Program-made: the position numbers and the translations under genes
Source of the DNA: an uncultured Alphaproteobacteria bacterium
GTDB lineage: Bacteria; Pseudomonadota; Alphaproteobacteria; RF32; CAG-239
Assembly: GCA_947588275.1 (NCBI GenBank)
Contig: CANPYJ010000020.1
Span: forward strand, 1 to 33,008
Reading direction: 5' to 3'
DNA: 33,008 nucleotides
Shown: one piece after another, positions 13,005-20,871 of the stretch
How the letters are laid out: every line of letters starts with the position of its first letter
Numbering within the stretch: position 1 is the first letter of the stretch
Notes under the pieces: model-generated
What the model saw: only the letters and a program-made list of their open reading frames with translations
What the model was told of the DNA's origin: nothing
The model's database searches: none

Positions 13005-14219
13005 TTATTTTCTTTTGCTGCGGCCGCTCAGATAGCCGATGGCAAAAGAAATGCCGTTAATAATCATTTTGCGGTCACGCTGGCGGAGTGAAGCCCAAAA
13101 ATCCCATGCCGTGCGCAAGAAGTTTTTGCGCGGCTGTTCGGCCGCCGACGCGGCGGTTGCGGCAACTGCCGCGGGCAGGGGTTTGACTTCGCCGCGCCAG
13201 GGTTCCAGCATGGCGGCAATTTCGTTGTCGGGCATATAAGCGCCGTGAATACGCATGAGGTCGCCGTCTGCCGGCAGAAACAATGCGTCGCCGCGTCCCA
13301 AAAGTTTTTCGGCGCCGGCAGTGTCCAAAATCGTTCGAGAGTCGGCGGCGCTGGCCGTCTTATAGGCCAGGCGGGTCGGAAAATTGGCTTTGAGGACGCC
13401 GGTCACCACGTCAACCGACGGCCGTTGCGTGGCCAAAATAATGTGTATGCCGGCGGCGCGGGCTTTTTGCGCCAGGCGTTGAACATAGTCGTCGGCATAT
13501 TTGTCGGCTGTCGTCAAATCAGCAAATTCGTCAATCACACATACGATATAGGGCAAATGGCCGGCGCTTTGATTGTAGTCGGCAATGTTTTTGACCAGAT
13601 TTTCCTCAAACAAGGCATAACGACGTTCCATTTCCTGCACCAAATAAGCCAACGTGGCCGACGCTTGCGCGGTTTCGGTCACCACCGGTGCCAGCATGTA
13701 TTTTTGATTGTTATACACGCTGAATTCAATGCGCTTGGGGTCAATCAGCACAAGTTTCAAATCGGCCGGTTTGTGCTTGGCTATGAGCGAAAGGATAAAT
13801 GTGTTCAGCCCTACCGATTTTCCGGAACCGGTTGTGCCTGCCGCCAGCAGATGCGGCATTTTGGCCAAATCCGCAATTACCGGTCGGCCTTTAATGTCTA
13901 CCCCGAGAATAATCGGCAGTGCGCCGTTGTTTTGCAAAAATTCGGGCGCGGCCAGAAGCGTCTTAAAGTCCACCGTTTGCATGTGCGCGGTCGGAAGCTC
14001 AAAACCGATGGTGCCGTTTTCTTCCAAAGCTTCCACACGCAGAGAGGGCGCGCCGAGTTCGCGCGCAATGTCGTCGAGAGAGGCAGTGATATTCTTCAAC
14101 TTGGTTCCGGCCGCCGGCAAAAATTCAACCAGAGTTACCAAAGGCCCTTCTGTCACGGCGACGATTTTTCCGCTGATGCCGTAATGGTTCAAAACTTCTT
14201 CCAGATTTTGCATTGTCAT
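13005..14219 (-). CDS. Short FtsK/SpoIIIE-type DNA translocase ATPase lacking N-terminal TM region
   Basis: 404 aa; HLLAAGTTGSGKSVGLN Walker A, VCVIDEFADL Walker B, AAGIHIILATQRPSVDVVTGVLKANFPTRLAYKTAS. Confidence 0.88.
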   Translation of the reverse strand: MTMQNLEEVLNHYGISGKIVAVTEGPLVTLVEFLPAAGTKLKNITASLDDIARELGAPSLRVEALEENGTIGFELPTAHMQTVDFKTLLAAPEFLQNNGALPIILGVDIKGRPVIADLAKMPHLLAAGTTGSGKSVGLNTFILSLIAKHKPADLKLVLIDPKRIEFSVYNNQKYMLAPVVTETAQASATLAYLVQEMERRYALFEENLVKNIADYNQSAGHLPYIVCVIDEFADLTTADKYADDYVQRLAQKARAAGIHIILATQRPSVDVVTGVLKANFPTRLAYKTASAADSRTILDTAGAEKLLGRGDALFLPADGDLMRIHGAYMPDNEIAAMLEPWRGEVKPLPAAVAATAASAAEQPRKNFLRTAWDFWASLRQRDRKMIINGISFAIGYLSGRSKRK

Positions 14220-14368
14220 ACCTTCGTAAAAAATGAAACTTGTTTCAATGTAATCCGTTTTGCCGAAAATGTAAACAGCGTATCGGTATCGGCCAGGTGA
14301 AAACGCTTTTGTGTCTGCAAATTTTTGCGTCAGTCAAAAAAATATTATCCGACGGTTGTTTTTTTTTC

Positions 14369-14399
14369 TTGACTTAGAGCATGCTCTAAAAATTATATT
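14369..14399 (+). promoter_or_regulatory. Promoter with overlapping operator-like palindrome
   Basis: TTGACT -35-like at 14369-14374, perfect 16-bp palindrome TTAGAGCATGCTCTAA at 14374-14389, TATATT -10-like at 14394-14399, upstream of the 14430 ORF. Confidence 0.7.
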
Positions 14400-14429
14400 A
14401 AATATAGATTTTTAACCCAGGAGAGTGTC

Positions 14430-15317
14430 ATGAATAAACCGATTGTTTACTTTACCAAAGAAATTTCGCCGGAGAGCCTGATTAGAATTTATCACAAACT
14501 CGGTCGCGGGCTGGAAGGCCGTGTCGGAGTCAAAATTTCCACCGGCGAGCCGGGCGGTCACAATTATCTCAAACCGGAGCTTATCGGCAAGCTGGTCAAA
14601 GAGCTAAATGCCGCAATCATTGAGTGCAACACCGCCTATGCCGGTCGCCGCAACACCTCTGCCGAACATCTGAAGGCGATTGAGGAACACGGTTTCAATA
14701 AAATCGCCCAAGTCGATTTGATGGATGTCGACGGCGAATTTGAGATTCCGGTCACGGGCGGCCGTCATTTGGATGTCGACATTGTCGGTTCGCATCTCAA
14801 AAATTATGATTCCATTCTTAATCTGGCGCACTTCAAGGGGCATGCAATGGGAGGTTTTGGCGGTGTCATCAAAAACCAGTCCATAGGCGTTGCCTCCAGC
14901 CGCGGCAAGACCTATATCCACACTGCCGGCGCCACTCGCGAACCCTCTGAACTGTGGGACAACCTGCCGGAGCAGAACGCCTTTTTGGAGTCAATGGCCG
15001 AAGCCGCCAAAGCCGTGGCCGATTTTATGAAAGGCAATATTCTGTATATCAATGTTATGAACAATTTGTCAGTGGATTGTGACTGCGATTCGCATCCCGA
15101 AGATCCGTGTATGGCGGATATCGGCATTTTGGCCTCGACTGATCCGGTAGCGGTCGATCAGGCCGCAATTGACAAAATTTGGTCTTCGACCGACCGTGGC
15201 CGCGATCATTTCATTGCCCGCGTCGAACGGCAAAACGGGCGGCATATTCTGCCTTATGCCGAAGCTTTGGGTTTGGGTTCCCGCCAATATAGTTTGGTAA
15301 ACATTGACAATGATTAA
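14430..15317 (+). CDS. DUF362 domain-containing protein
   Basis: 295 aa; RVGVKISTGEPGGHNYLKPELI, LNLAHFKGHAMGGFGGVIKNQSIG, DPVAVDQAAIDKI typical of DUF362 proteins; preceded by an AGGAGAG Shine-Dalgarno sequence. Confidence 0.85.
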   Translation: MNKPIVYFTKEISPESLIRIYHKLGRGLEGRVGVKISTGEPGGHNYLKPELIGKLVKELNAAIIECNTAYAGRRNTSAEHLKAIEEHGFNKIAQVDLMDVDGEFEIPVTGGRHLDVDIVGSHLKNYDSILNLAHFKGHAMGGFGGVIKNQSIGVASSRGKTYIHTAGATREPSELWDNLPEQNAFLESMAEAAKAVADFMKGNILYINVMNNLSVDCDCDSHPEDPCMADIGILASTDPVAVDQAAIDKIWSSTDRGRDHFIARVERQNGRHILPYAEALGLGSRQYSLVNIDND

Positions 15318-15891
15318 ATTGATGCAAATTTTGGGCCTCGTGGCGGCGCTGGTGATATCGGCCGTTGTCACGGTGGCCGCAAAGGAGGATAAACCACCGA
15401 TGACAAACAAAACTTTGGTTGTATATTTTTCATACAGCGGCAATACCAAACGCATTGCCGACCTCATCAGCGCCGAGACAGGTGCCGATACGGCGCGCAT
15501 CGAAACCATTGCGCCTTATGTCGGCACTATGGATGAAATTTCGGAGCAAGGCAAAAAAGAAGTCGAGCAGGGTTATCTGCCGCCAATCAAACCGCTTGGC
15601 GTCAATCCGGCCGAGTATAAGCGCATTGTCATCGGCACGCCGACCTGGTGGTATACCATGGCGCCGGCGGTGCGCGCTTTTTTGCGCCAAATCGACTGGC
15701 AGGGCAAAGAGGTTGTCTTGTATATGACCAACGCCGGTTGGCCGGGACATGTGATTGCCGATATGAAGAAGGCTGTCGCCGGAGCCAAAGTTATTGCCGA
15801 CAAGGAAATTTTGTTTGACTCCGACGGCGGTAACGAGTTGATAACCCCAGAGTCTGAAATCAAAGACTGGATAAACGGTTGGCAATTTTGA
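15310..15891 (+). CDS. Flavodoxin family protein, with possible N-terminal signal/anchor
   Basis: LVVYFSYSGNTKRIADLI FMN-binding loop; TPTWWYTMAPAVRAFL; N-terminal hydrophobic MQILGLVAALVISAVVTVAA. Overlaps the DUF362 stop. Confidence 0.88.
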   Translation: MIKLMQILGLVAALVISAVVTVAAKEDKPPMTNKTLVVYFSYSGNTKRIADLISAETGADTARIETIAPYVGTMDEISEQGKKEVEQGYLPPIKPLGVNPAEYKRIVIGTPTWWYTMAPAVRAFLRQIDWQGKEVVLYMTNAGWPGHVIADMKKAVAGAKVIADKEILFDSDGGNELITPESEIKDWINGWQF

Positions 15892-15961
15892 CCGCCTTAA
15901 TAATTGTCAATGTTCTTCTGATAGGGCAACGGACGGTCTTTTTCAATGCGGAGCAGGCAGA

Positions 15962-16384
15962 ATGAGCAAGATTAAATCAGGATTGTCGGCGATTTTGAGT
16001 TTATGTGCCGCGGCGTCAATCTGCGCGGCACAGGAAGCAGGGAAAATGCCTATGGGAATTACGGTAAATATCTATTATAGCGGCAAAGACGGCAATGCGC
16101 GTAAATTTGCCGAGGAGATGGAAAAAAGCGGAACAGTGGCGGAGATTCGCCGCGAAACCGGCAACAAACGTTATGAATATTTCTTTTCCAAAGATGATGA
16201 GCAAACGGTTTTGCTGATTGACAGCTGGGAAAGTCAGGAGGCGTTGGACAGGCATCACGCTTCGCCAATGATGGAAAAGATTTCAAAACTGCGCGACAAA
16301 TATGATTTGCATATGAAAGTAGAGCGTTATGTGGAAGATGCTTCGGGAATTCCGGCCGCGGATAAAATTTTCGTCAAAGAATAG
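15962..16384 (+). CDS. Antibiotic biosynthesis monooxygenase (ABM)-like / putative quinol monooxygenase, secreted
   Basis: 140 aa with signal-like N-terminus (ILSLCAAASICAAQ) and ABM-like core (SWESQEALDRHHASPMMEKI). Confidence 0.75.
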   Translation: MSKIKSGLSAILSLCAAASICAAQEAGKMPMGITVNIYYSGKDGNARKFAEEMEKSGTVAEIRRETGNKRYEYFFSKDDEQTVLLIDSWESQEALDRHHASPMMEKISKLRDKYDLHMKVERYVEDASGIPAADKIFVKE

Positions 16385-16385
16385 G

Positions 16386-17420
16386 ATGTTTGCAGCCGTT
16401 AAGTCTTATTTGGGCGCGGTTTTGGCTGCGCTGTTGATGTATGCCCCATCGCATGCCCAAACCCTTGTTGACGTGCACAGTCATATTATCGTTTCGGAAT
16501 ATATTGATTTTCTCAAAAAGCATCATGCCGAATTGCAAGAAACGTTTCCTTTGCCTGAGTGGAGTGTCGACAATCATCTTAAGTTTATGTCCGATTTGGG
16601 GATTGGCTATTCTGTCTTATCTCTTCCGGCTCCTCAGCCGTATTTTGGAAACAGTCGCGAAAGTGCCGACATTGTGAGAGAATTAAATAAAATATCGGCT
16701 CAAATTCGTGATTCAAATCCTGAAAAATTTAAATTTTTGGCAACCCTGCCTCTGCCTGATGTCAAAGCGGCCGTCAAAGAGGTTGAATATGCTTTTGAGG
16801 TGTTGCATGCAGACGGAATTAAGTTGGCTACCAATAGTTACGGTCAATATTTGGGAGATGTCGAACTTGACGATTTGATGGCAGTTTTAGATAAATATCA
16901 TGCCGTCGTCTTTATACATCCGCATCGTCCGGAGCCCTACAACGAGAAAATTATTCAAACAACGCCCTTGGCAATGTACGAGTATCCGGCAGAAACAACT
17001 CGTGCCGTCGTCAATATGATTTCGCACAATGTGGTGGCGCGTTATCCGAACATCAAGATGATTGTTCCTCACTGCGGTTCATTTTTGCCGTTGGCTCTGC
17101 CGCGGATGAAGGCCATATTTCCGGCCATGAAAGCCAAAGGTTTGATGCCGGATATTGATTGGGATAAAAACCTTGCGGGATTATATTATGATTTGGCCGG
17201 TGTTCCGACGGGACAACTGATTAAAACGATGCTGACAATTACTTCGCCGGATCATATTCTGTATGGCTCGGATTATCCGTATCAGCCGGAAGAGGTCTTA
17301 AAAAGCAATCTTGACAATCTGCGCCGCACGCTGCATGCCGATCAGGAATTGGCGCCTTATGCCGAAAATATTTTATATCAAAATGCTGCCAAACTGTTTA
17401 AGATAGGAGAAAAGAAATGA
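16386..17420 (+). CDS. Amidohydrolase family (ACMSD-like TIM barrel), predicted secreted
   Basis: Signal-like MFAAVKSYLGAVLAALLMYAPSHAQ; DVHSHI metal motif; FIHPHRP; IVPHCGSFLP; HILYGSDYPY. Start chosen at 16386, just after the upstream stop. Confidence 0.85.
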   Translation: MFAAVKSYLGAVLAALLMYAPSHAQTLVDVHSHIIVSEYIDFLKKHHAELQETFPLPEWSVDNHLKFMSDLGIGYSVLSLPAPQPYFGNSRESADIVRELNKISAQIRDSNPEKFKFLATLPLPDVKAAVKEVEYAFEVLHADGIKLATNSYGQYLGDVELDDLMAVLDKYHAVVFIHPHRPEPYNEKIIQTTPLAMYEYPAETTRAVVNMISHNVVARYPNIKMIVPHCGSFLPLALPRMKAIFPAMKAKGLMPDIDWDKNLAGLYYDLAGVPTGQLIKTMLTITSPDHILYGSDYPYQPEEVLKSNLDNLRRTLHADQELAPYAENILYQNAAKLFKIGEKK

Positions 17421-17977
17421 AAAAGAGTTTAGGATCCGTTTTGGCCTTATATCCGACCCCGGTCGCCATCATCGGGGTGATGAATCAAGACAAACCGACA
17501 TGGATGCTTGTCGGTCATGTCGGCATTATCGGACATGATAAGATTTTGCTTAGTTTGCACAAAATCCACTACACAAACAAATTTATCAGACAAAACAACC
17601 GCCTGTCCGTTAATATTGTTGACGAAAATATATTGCCGCAGGCTGATTATGTCGGCATTAACAGCGGCATAAATGTCGATAAAAGCGATGTTTTTGTTTA
17701 TACGTTGAGCGAAAATAATACGCCGCTGATTGACGCAAGCCCGTTGACAATGGACTGCCTCGTCGTCGACAACTATGAAACGGATAATTTTGACAATTTT
17801 GTTTGCACGATTGAAAATACGTTTGTCGAAGAAAGTATGTTGGATGAAAAAAACAAAGTCGACTATCGCCGGTTAAAACCGGTTTTGTTTGAAATGCCGA
17901 CATATTCCTATCTGAGAACCGGCGACGTGATTGAACGCGGAGGAATTTTGGGAAAAAATTGGAAGAAAGGAGCATGA
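17417..17977 (+). CDS. Flavin reductase family protein
   Basis: 186 aa flavin-reductase-like fold sequence (LALYPTPVAIIGVM...RLSVNIVDENILPQADYVG); 4-bp ATGA overlap with the preceding gene. Confidence 0.75.
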   Translation: MKKSLGSVLALYPTPVAIIGVMNQDKPTWMLVGHVGIIGHDKILLSLHKIHYTNKFIRQNNRLSVNIVDENILPQADYVGINSGINVDKSDVFVYTLSENNTPLIDASPLTMDCLVVDNYETDNFDNFVCTIENTFVEESMLDEKNKVDYRRLKPVLFEMPTYSYLRTGDVIERGGILGKNWKKGA

Positions 17978-18218: not shown

Positions 18219-18593
18219 TTAGATCAAAAGATCTAATATCTCTTGATCACTTGGAAGCTCTGGAAGCTTCACATCAAGTATCCACGCTTCATATTCAGGG
18301 GAGACTGCAAAATATGAGGTGTCCGATTTTGCGAGCCTGCCACCAAAAGCCTCATACAAGGCTTCAGCATGTTCTTTCGACCCAACGAAGTAGGCATAGA
18401 TGCCATGTCTACTTTCATCAACGCTGAAAACTTCAATAGGAAGCTTTGTATCCTTATAGATGTAGTAAACAACATCGCGCAGGACACATCCATGACAAGC
18501 ACGACAAATGAAAATCTTGCCATAGTTTTTAACGTCTGAAAACGATTGAGCAAGACGCTCTTTCGCAACTTTCAAAGCTTCTTTTTTGTTCAT
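18219..18593 (-). CDS. Hypothetical protein with CxxCxxC motif
   Basis: ~124 aa from MNKKEALKVAKERLAQS; KIFICRACHGCVLRD; start chosen at 18593 rather than 18647. No family recognised. Confidence 0.55.
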   Translation of the reverse strand: MNKKEALKVAKERLAQSFSDVKNYGKIFICRACHGCVLRDVVYYIYKDTKLPIEVFSVDESRHGIYAYFVGSKEHAEALYEAFGGRLAKSDTSYFAVSPEYEAWILDVKLPELPSDQEILDLLI

Positions 18594-18656
18594 AATTTTA
18601 TATTTTAAATAGTTAATAATAATTCTTTTACAATCGAAGTATAGCACATTTCTTAA

Positions 18657-18892
18657 GTTATAGCTTGCTTTCCAAATCTGATATGCTATACTTACAACAC
18701 CCTCATTTATTCATTGAGTAAATGTTATAGCTTGCTTTCCAAATCTGATATGCTATACTTCATTTAAGGCTCCTACCCAAGCCGCTGGGTGTTATAGCTT
18801 GCTTTCCAAATCTGATATGCTATACTAACTTATCGTTAACGTCTGCTTGCTCAATGGTTATAGCTTGCTTTCCATATCTGATATGAGATATT
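18657..18892 (+). CRISPR. Mini CRISPR array: 4 repeats, 3 spacers, type II-C-like repeat
   Basis: GTTATAGCTTGCTTTCCAAATCTGATATGCTATACT at 18657-18692, 18724-18759 and 18791-18826 (identical); degenerate copy GTTATAGCTTGCTTTCCATATCTGATATGAGATATT at 18857-18892. Unique spacers of 31, 31 and 30 bp. Confidence 0.92.
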
Positions 18893-18964: not shown

Positions 18965-19450
18965 TTAAATTGGCTTTTCCAACCGTATAATTGCCACATC
19001 CGTTTTTCCAAATTTTTTAGCTGGCGTATTTGATTTTGTCATGCCAAGTTTTTCGTAAAATCCGACCGCTGGACCGTCCTTGATTGTCCATACGATTAAT
19101 TTTTTGTATCCTTTTTTCTTTTTCAAGACACAAATTTCACACATCAAAGCACGGCCTAATCCTTGTCTTTGAAAATCCGGATGAATATACAACATTTGAA
19201 CTTCAACCGTTCGGGCCTCGGGGACTTGAACACATAAAAACCCCGCAATATGGTTGTTTAATTCAACAACATAATATTCAACGGATTTGATTCGTGCGGC
19301 CGTTCGTTGGATGACGGCATCATCAAAGGGCATCTGATCCAAAAAATCATCCGGCAAATATCCGCGATAGCAAACTTGATAAGCATGGTAATGTATAAAC
19401 TTGATGTCTTTAGCATCGGTGGGAACGGCTTGACGAATTTTTATTGGCAT
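18965..19450 (-). CDS. GNAT family N-acetyltransferase
   Basis: 161 aa; VQMLYIHPDFQRQGLGRALMCEI acetyl-CoA binding motif; VGFYEKLGM. Confidence 0.9.
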   Translation of the reverse strand: MPIKIRQAVPTDAKDIKFIHYHAYQVCYRGYLPDDFLDQMPFDDAVIQRTAARIKSVEYYVVELNNHIAGFLCVQVPEARTVEVQMLYIHPDFQRQGLGRALMCEICVLKKKKGYKKLIVWTIKDGPAVGFYEKLGMTKSNTPAKKFGKTDVAIIRLEKPI

Positions 19451-19469: not shown

Positions 19470-19546
19470 TGGTCGGGACGAGAGGATTCGAACCTCCGAC
19501 TTCTTGCACCCCATGCAAGCGCTCTACCAGACTGAACTACGTCCCG
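19470..19546 (-). tRNA. tRNA-Pro(GGG) with encoded CCA
   Basis: Reverse complement CGGGACGTAGTTCAGTCTGGTAGAGCGCTTGCATGGGGTGCAAGAAGTCGGAGGTTCGAATCCTCTCGTCCCGACCA folds as a cloverleaf; anticodon loop ATGGGGT. Confidence 0.95.
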
Positions 19547-19750: not shown

Positions 19751-19793
19751 CCCCATGCAAGCGCTCTACCAGACTGAACTACGTCCCGAATAT
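19751..19793 (-). pseudogene. Truncated tRNA-Pro copy (5' half plus 5 nt of upstream flank)
   Basis: 43 bp identical to 19509-19551, covering the tRNA 5' end through the anticodon loop, then diverging. Confidence 0.9.
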
Positions 19794-20072: not shown

Positions 20073-20480
20073 TTATGATTGTTTAGATTTTTCCACCGCG
20101 GCCGCCAGCGAATGCTGCAAAGCGCTCAACTTCTGCCTCAAACCGCTTAAAAATTCGCGCATCGGCGCATCCGGCTCAATTTCCGGTACGTTAAAGAAAT
20201 CTTTTTGAATTTCTTCGCCGACCAGATTTTTGACGCCTTTTTCCTTAAAAAGCTTTTGCACGCCTTCGATCGTGTAACGCTCATCATAAAGAAAATGTTT
20301 GATTGTTTTGACCAGTTCCACGTCGTCGGGGCGATAATAGCGTCGTCCTCCGCTGCGTTTCATCGGTTTTATCTGGCTGAATTTGGTCTCCCAAAAGCGC
20401 AGGACATGCGTTGCCACACCGAGTTCTTCGGCCACCTCGGCAATGGTTCGGAACGCCGCCTTGCTTTTGTTGACAACCAT
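20073..20480 (-). CDS. MerR family transcriptional regulator
   Basis: [52 protein letters not shown]. Confidence 0.92.
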
Positions 20481-20494
20481 AAGCGTTCTCTGAC

Positions 20495-20779
20495 TTAGGC
20501 GTTGATTAGCTTGCGCATTGTTTGTGAGGGCTTAAACGAAATGACGCGCCGCGGACTGATGACAGCTTCGACGCCGGTTTTGGGATTGCGTCCGGCGCGG
20601 GCTTTTTTGTTGCGCAACGAAAAAGTGCCGAAAGACGACAGTTTGACGTCTTTCCCGTCGGCAAGTTCCTTAACGATTTCGTCAAGAATCATATCTAAAA
20701 TATCGTTGGAATCTTTTCTTGACAATCCGATTTCCTGATAAATGCTTTCGGCAACATCGGCGCGGGTAATTGTTTTCAT
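20495..20779 (-). CDS. ihfA: Integration host factor subunit alpha
   Basis: HU/IHF fold sequence; [25 protein letters not shown]...[11 protein letters not shown]; neighbourhood of fabH/plsX. Confidence 0.9.
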
Positions 20780-20871
20780 TTCTTTCCTCATTAAGCTTGT
20801 TTTCGTTAATTGATATTGGGATATTTATCTCAAAATTAGAGCGCTGACAAGAGCTAATCCACAGTTTTTTT

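Follow-up and report, generated by a model that had tools for sequence, protein, structure and literature searches.

A short CRISPR array beside tRNA-Pro in an uncultured gut alphaproteobacterium, a probable relic of a deleted type II-C locus

The CRISPR array at positions 18657-18892 of the window (the whole 33,008-nt stretch of DNA analysed here) is very probably a decayed type II-C locus, the relic of a deletion. This reading is favoured because the site is syntenic with an intact locus in one relative (G015) and with an empty site in another (G021), both of the same genus. Orphan arrays usually go unexplained because their history is invisible; the intact, empty and array-only versions of one site within one genus point to a plausible route, namely deletion with junctions inside CRISPR repeats. 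In kind the feature is ordinary, an orphan II-C relic whose history can be read with unusual clarity.

The array consists of four 36-bp repeats, three identical and a divergent last copy, spaced at 67, 67 and 66 nt:

18657-18692, + strand: CRISPR repeat 1, 36 nt, perfect, the same sequence as the G039 repeat; its 3' end has an extended -10-like box (TGCTATACT)
18693-18723, + strand: spacer 1, 31 nt
18724-18759, + strand: CRISPR repeat 2, perfect
18760-18790, + strand: spacer 2, 31 nt
18791-18826, + strand: CRISPR repeat 3, perfect
18827-18856, + strand: spacer 3, 30 nt
18857-18892, + strand: last (fourth) repeat, nucleotides 1-29 with one substitution, nucleotides 30-36 at 4/7 identity

Repeats 1-3 are copies of the 36-mer GTTATAGCTTGCTTTCCAAATCTGATATGCTATACT. 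The four mismatches of the last repeat fall at positions 19, 30, 31 and 35, leaving the first 18 nt unchanged and the promoter-like box lost. In repeats 1-3 the TGCTATACT box is recognised by sequence, and a generic sigma-70 promoter scan scores no site. A preliminary description of this DNA had reported three identical repeats and a degenerate fourth at these intervals, with three unique spacers; coordinates and spacing were reproduced, and the spacer sequences agree fully with those given there. A type II-C array is expected to show identical repeats at regular intervals around unrelated spacers, as seen here. Exact 20-mers recurring at 40-80 nt number 36 in the window, and none of 50 first-order Markov simulations produced any. 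Positions 18636-18649 (GAAGTATAGCACAT), just upstream of the array, form a near inverted copy of the 3' end of the repeat, which may be chance or an old inverted repeat fragment.

Repeats of this family (≤3 mismatches) were found in 9 of 137 genomes. One is G039, from another genus of the same family, in which 11 copies of the identical 36-mer (0 mismatches), with unrelated 30-nt spacers, adjoin cas9 (1115 aa), cas1 (304 aa) and cas2 (109 aa). The G039 Cas9 scores 541 bits against TIGR01865 and has Cas9 chains of about 1080-1150 aa as its nearest neighbours in the PDB, its Cas1 belongs to type II (TIGR03639, 300 bits), and a tracrRNA with the anti-repeat CAAATTTGGAAAGCGAGCTGTAAC lies just upstream of cas9. 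This locus contains no further cas-like ORF, and none lies between cas9 and the array; it has a II-C layout because the array is accompanied by Cas9, type-II Cas1 and Cas2 with no additional cas gene. The identity of the repeats supports the assignment of the window array to type II and, within it, to II-C, in agreement with the preliminary reading of the repeat as II-C-like. The Neisseria repeat quoted in that description shares 23/36 positions with the window repeat in an ungapped alignment.

All seven intact multi-repeat arrays examined end, on the cas-proximal (3') side, with a perfect repeat followed by a hairpin (e.g. AACCTGTTGATTTTTCAACAGGTT; weaker in G117), and their degenerate repeats, where present, lie at the far (5') end. 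These ends fit the published II-C pattern, in which spacers are acquired via the last repeat, each repeat contains a promoter and mutations gather in the first repeat (PMC12080349). The window shows the opposite: its mutated repeat is the last, and its 3' end has neither a perfect last repeat nor a hairpin.

The surroundings of the array were compared with the corresponding site in relatives, using the following features of the window:

18219-18647, - strand: 142-aa ORF, the array's other flank; no Pfam, NCBIfam or PADLOC match
18965-19450, - strand: GNAT N-acetyltransferase gene (Pfam PF13508 / PF00583)
19470-19546, - strand: tRNA-Pro(GGG), the syntenic anchor; the G015 CRISPR-cas locus lies on its 3' side
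20073-20791, - strand: MerR-family regulator and ihfA, conserved flank common to G015 and G021

Read toward tRNA-Pro(GGG), the window carries recG, mfd, OmpA, a DWKEF protein, an FtsK-like gene, a five-gene metabolic cassette, the 142-aa ORF and the array, past which follow the GNAT gene, tRNA-Pro, MerR and ihfA. The corresponding order in G015 (CALXVV010000013.1, an uncultured member of the Alphaproteobacteria from the window's genus) is OmpA, PPase, DWKEF, an NTF2-like gene, array, cas2, cas1, cas9, tracrRNA, tRNA-Pro, MerR and ihfA. Both genomes have a MerR-ihfA-fabH-plsX run beside tRNA-Pro, with OmpA and the DWKEF protein on the far side; the G015 array lies on the + strand and its cas genes on the - strand, in the same orientation to the tRNA as in the window. 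The place of G015's cas2-cas1-cas9-tracrRNA is occupied in the window by the GNAT gene, which is absent from the loci of 18 relatives examined. The empty version of the site is found in G021, a sister of G015 whose DNA is 97-98% identical on either side: recG, mfd, OmpA, DWKEF, NTF2, tRNA-Pro, MerR and ihfA follow one another with no CRISPR, and the genome is also negative for Cas9, Cas1 and tracrRNA. At its junction (L105), roughly 250 nt away from the 3' end of tRNA-Pro and at the point where the first G015 repeat starts, G021 has the 12-nt sequence GTTATGGCTACC, identical at 10/12 positions to the repeat start GTTATAGCTTCC (chance about 4e-5 for that one position), which reads as a putative deletion scar.

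Other differences were noted around this site. The FtsK-like gene and cassette at 13005-17977 (DUF362, flavodoxin-like, ABM monooxygenase, amidohydrolase and flavin reductase genes) have no counterpart in the corresponding interval of G015 or G021. A 43-bp, 100% identical partial copy of the 5' part of tRNA-Pro (19751-19793) lies upstream of the intact gene, and partial copies beside tRNA-Pro also occur in several sister species.

The host genome (G000; 1,392,563 bases in 39 contigs with an estimated completeness of 100%; the window is all of contig C20) was searched for the machinery that a functional II-C system would use. Cas9 was sought with TIGR01865, used in place of the RuvC_III Pfam model, which matched no control; the search of the host genome was negative, and 37 of the 137 genomes searched were positive, five of them in the window's own genus. 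Cas1 (PF01867) was likewise negative in the host and positive, by the same search, in G015, G039 and G043. Cas2 was searched for within the window and not found, cas proteins giving chance-level tblastn scores there. No cas-like protein at all is present in the 33-kb window, as the preliminary description had stated for Cas9, Cas1 and Cas2 near the array. The same description had proposed looking genome-wide for cas9 and cas1, for further arrays of the same repeat and for a tracrRNA anti-repeat. Neither cas gene and no further array was found in the host genome, where the anti-repeat pattern matched the array itself and, elsewhere, at the level of a reversed-pattern control. R1, a covariance model of the tracrRNA body built from six sequences, was also negative in the host; it matches nine relatives with E-values from 4e-7 to 1e-16, six of the nine having supplied the model.

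Several candidate remnants were considered and rejected. A degenerate tracrRNA tail 3' of the last repeat (ATATTTCGCATGG compared with AAATTTCGAGTGG) was not recovered by a covariance model from six tracr tails, and the stump with its flank folds no better than shuffled sequences. Between the array and the tRNA, local alignments and tblastn for leftover cas fragments stayed at or near chance, and a 41-nt AT-rich match on the array's other flank is low-complexity sequence, not a cas fragment.

The spacers gave no convincing protospacer among GenBank phages. Outside its own array, spacer 1 has nothing within 3 mismatches in 157 family genomes, and its resemblance to a Salmonella prophage gene (25/28, E 0.07) was taken as chance. 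Spacer 2 is without a match in the same 157 genomes, its own array aside, and in the phage collection, where spacer 3 gave a single chance-level 18-nt match (E 0.6). Self-targeting was rejected: spacer 3 and the ORF at 18219-18647 share two 10-nt words, and shuffled spacers give matches within the window that are at least as good.

We infer for the window array a deletion, its junction and a lack of function, along the following lines. In the ancestor, a full array-cas2-cas1-cas9-tracrRNA unit would have stood 3' of tRNA-Pro. A deletion would have started inside the present fourth repeat, after about nucleotide 29, with a probable junction near 18885/18886; this start is placed within the repeat because 28 of its first 29 positions match, 4 of its last 7 do, and the 3' hairpin is missing. 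Along with the remaining repeats and spacers, the event would have taken out the acquisition (3') end of the array, the cas operon and the tracrRNA, and the GNAT gene would have come to stand between the array stump and the tRNA. Short spacer-repeat RNAs or precursor crRNAs could still arise from the TGCTATACT boxes of repeats 1-3; such transcription is only presumed, because the generic promoter scan does not score these boxes. With neither Cas9 nor tracrRNA the RNAs would guide nothing, and with no Cas1 no spacer would be added. Since repeats 1-3 are undecayed, the loss would be recent, or else something preserves them or an outside partner is supplied. The gap between array and tRNA, in which no cas remnant was found, counts against the deletion history.

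Compared with known type II-C systems, the window shares the repeat length of 36 nt, 30-nt spacers and a promoter-like box located within the repeat at its 3' end, and the intact relatives agree in cas9-cas1-cas2, an opposite-strand array and a Cas9 near chains of about 1080-1150 aa; unlike those systems, the window has an array stump alone, lacking cas genes, tracrRNA and 3' acquisition flank. It resembles other orphan arrays in being short and in belonging to a genome where neither Cas9 nor Cas1 was found, and differs from them in that the intact and empty sites of sister species show its probable origin. With the G015 locus it shares the chromosomal site, the orientation and the repeat family (3 mismatches), whereas G015 has 21 repeats, a complete cas operon and a tracrRNA.

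The preliminary description had left two possibilities, a relic or an array served in trans by a distant locus. The former is strengthened by the intact and empty sites of the same genus; a distant locus within the genome finds no support, the searches for Cas9, Cas1 and tracrRNA being negative. It is unlikely that the array is alive through Cas9 and tracrRNA provided in trans from a plasmid, a phage or an unassembled contig, its three fixed spacers serving in immunity or gene control. A cas9-bearing plasmid or mobile element could be missing from the 39-contig assembly, and distant Cas9 homologues (28-33% identity) do occur on plasmids. The three undecayed repeats, with promoter-like boxes and tracr-pairing halves intact, would also suit a working array, as would the sparing of the first 18 nt of the last repeat, the part needed for the last crRNA. 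Nevertheless, the assembly contains no Cas9, Cas1 or tracrRNA, neither the array nor its spacers match the plasmid collection, and the acquisition end is gone.

Insertion beside tRNA-Pro of a mini-array that came without cas genes, as a solo mobile unit or on a phage, and never had any at this site is very unlikely. The tRNA-Pro flank does vary between species, and the window repeat is matched exactly in another genus (G039) and less closely in the same-genus G015; against this stand the orthologous full locus in G015, with the same strand arrangement, and the array-adjacent ORFs, none of which was recognised as an integrase or phage gene. The reading that this is no CRISPR at all but some unrelated repeat, short tandem or interspersed, to which the mere four copies might lend themselves, has a negligible probability and is refuted by G039, where the same 36-mer forms an 11-repeat array beside Cas9, Cas1 and Cas2. 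Copies dispersed singly through the genome, named in the preliminary description as evidence against an array, were not found either: a whole-genome search (≤3 mismatches over the first 30 nt) confined the repeat to its four copies in the window.

Under the preferred reading of a relic left by deletion, one II-C locus at tRNA-Pro that was lost repeatedly would be the simplest history. Between G015 (L088) and G039 (L089), Cas2 is 90% and Cas1 67% identical, Cas9 about 30-32%, and the repeats are near-identical. Strong divergence of Cas9 alongside similar Cas1 and Cas2 implies that parts of the locus were apparently exchanged between lineages, Cas9 apparently within one repeat/adaptation lineage; independent arrival at the same tRNA is therefore possible.

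A related case was observed in G068 (CALXRS010000033.1, L094), where a single-spacer CRISPR unit fused to a tracrRNA body lies beside rplS on the - strand (about 9106-8958). The unit comprises a half-repeat (TTATGCTATAAT), one 30-nt spacer and one full repeat, passing directly into the tracrRNA body (AATCGAAAATTTCGAGTGGGG...CATCCCCTTTTTT) with a terminator. No Cas1 and no credible Cas9 were found in this genome (one partial TIGR01865 match of 19.6 bits), and no second repeat-tracrRNA fusion in 157 family genomes. In intact loci the 8-mer GCTATAAT occurs at the end of both the repeat and the anti-repeat, and a deletion between these direct copies would therefore remove the cas operon and make exactly the G068 fusion, which is likely the product of such an event between last repeat and anti-repeat. 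The fused RNA folds as an sgRNA (-33.2 kcal/mol; 0/200 shuffles as good), and its tail scores 81 bits against R1, the G068 sequence being among the model's six; the unit is predicted to be a natural sgRNA-like gene. It is highly improbable, though conceivable, that the family's orphan II-C stumps are kept as standing guide sets, used when mobile elements bring Cas9 and tracrRNA, with the G068 fusion as a more self-contained form. G068 suggests that the same deletion route can join a spacer-repeat to a tracrRNA body, so that a single-guide RNA gene arises by chance, a case that bears on the origin of natural sgRNAs. The tracr-L of S. pyogenes also acts as a natural single guide, but there the source is a longer tracrRNA transcript, not an array fusion (PMC11417352).
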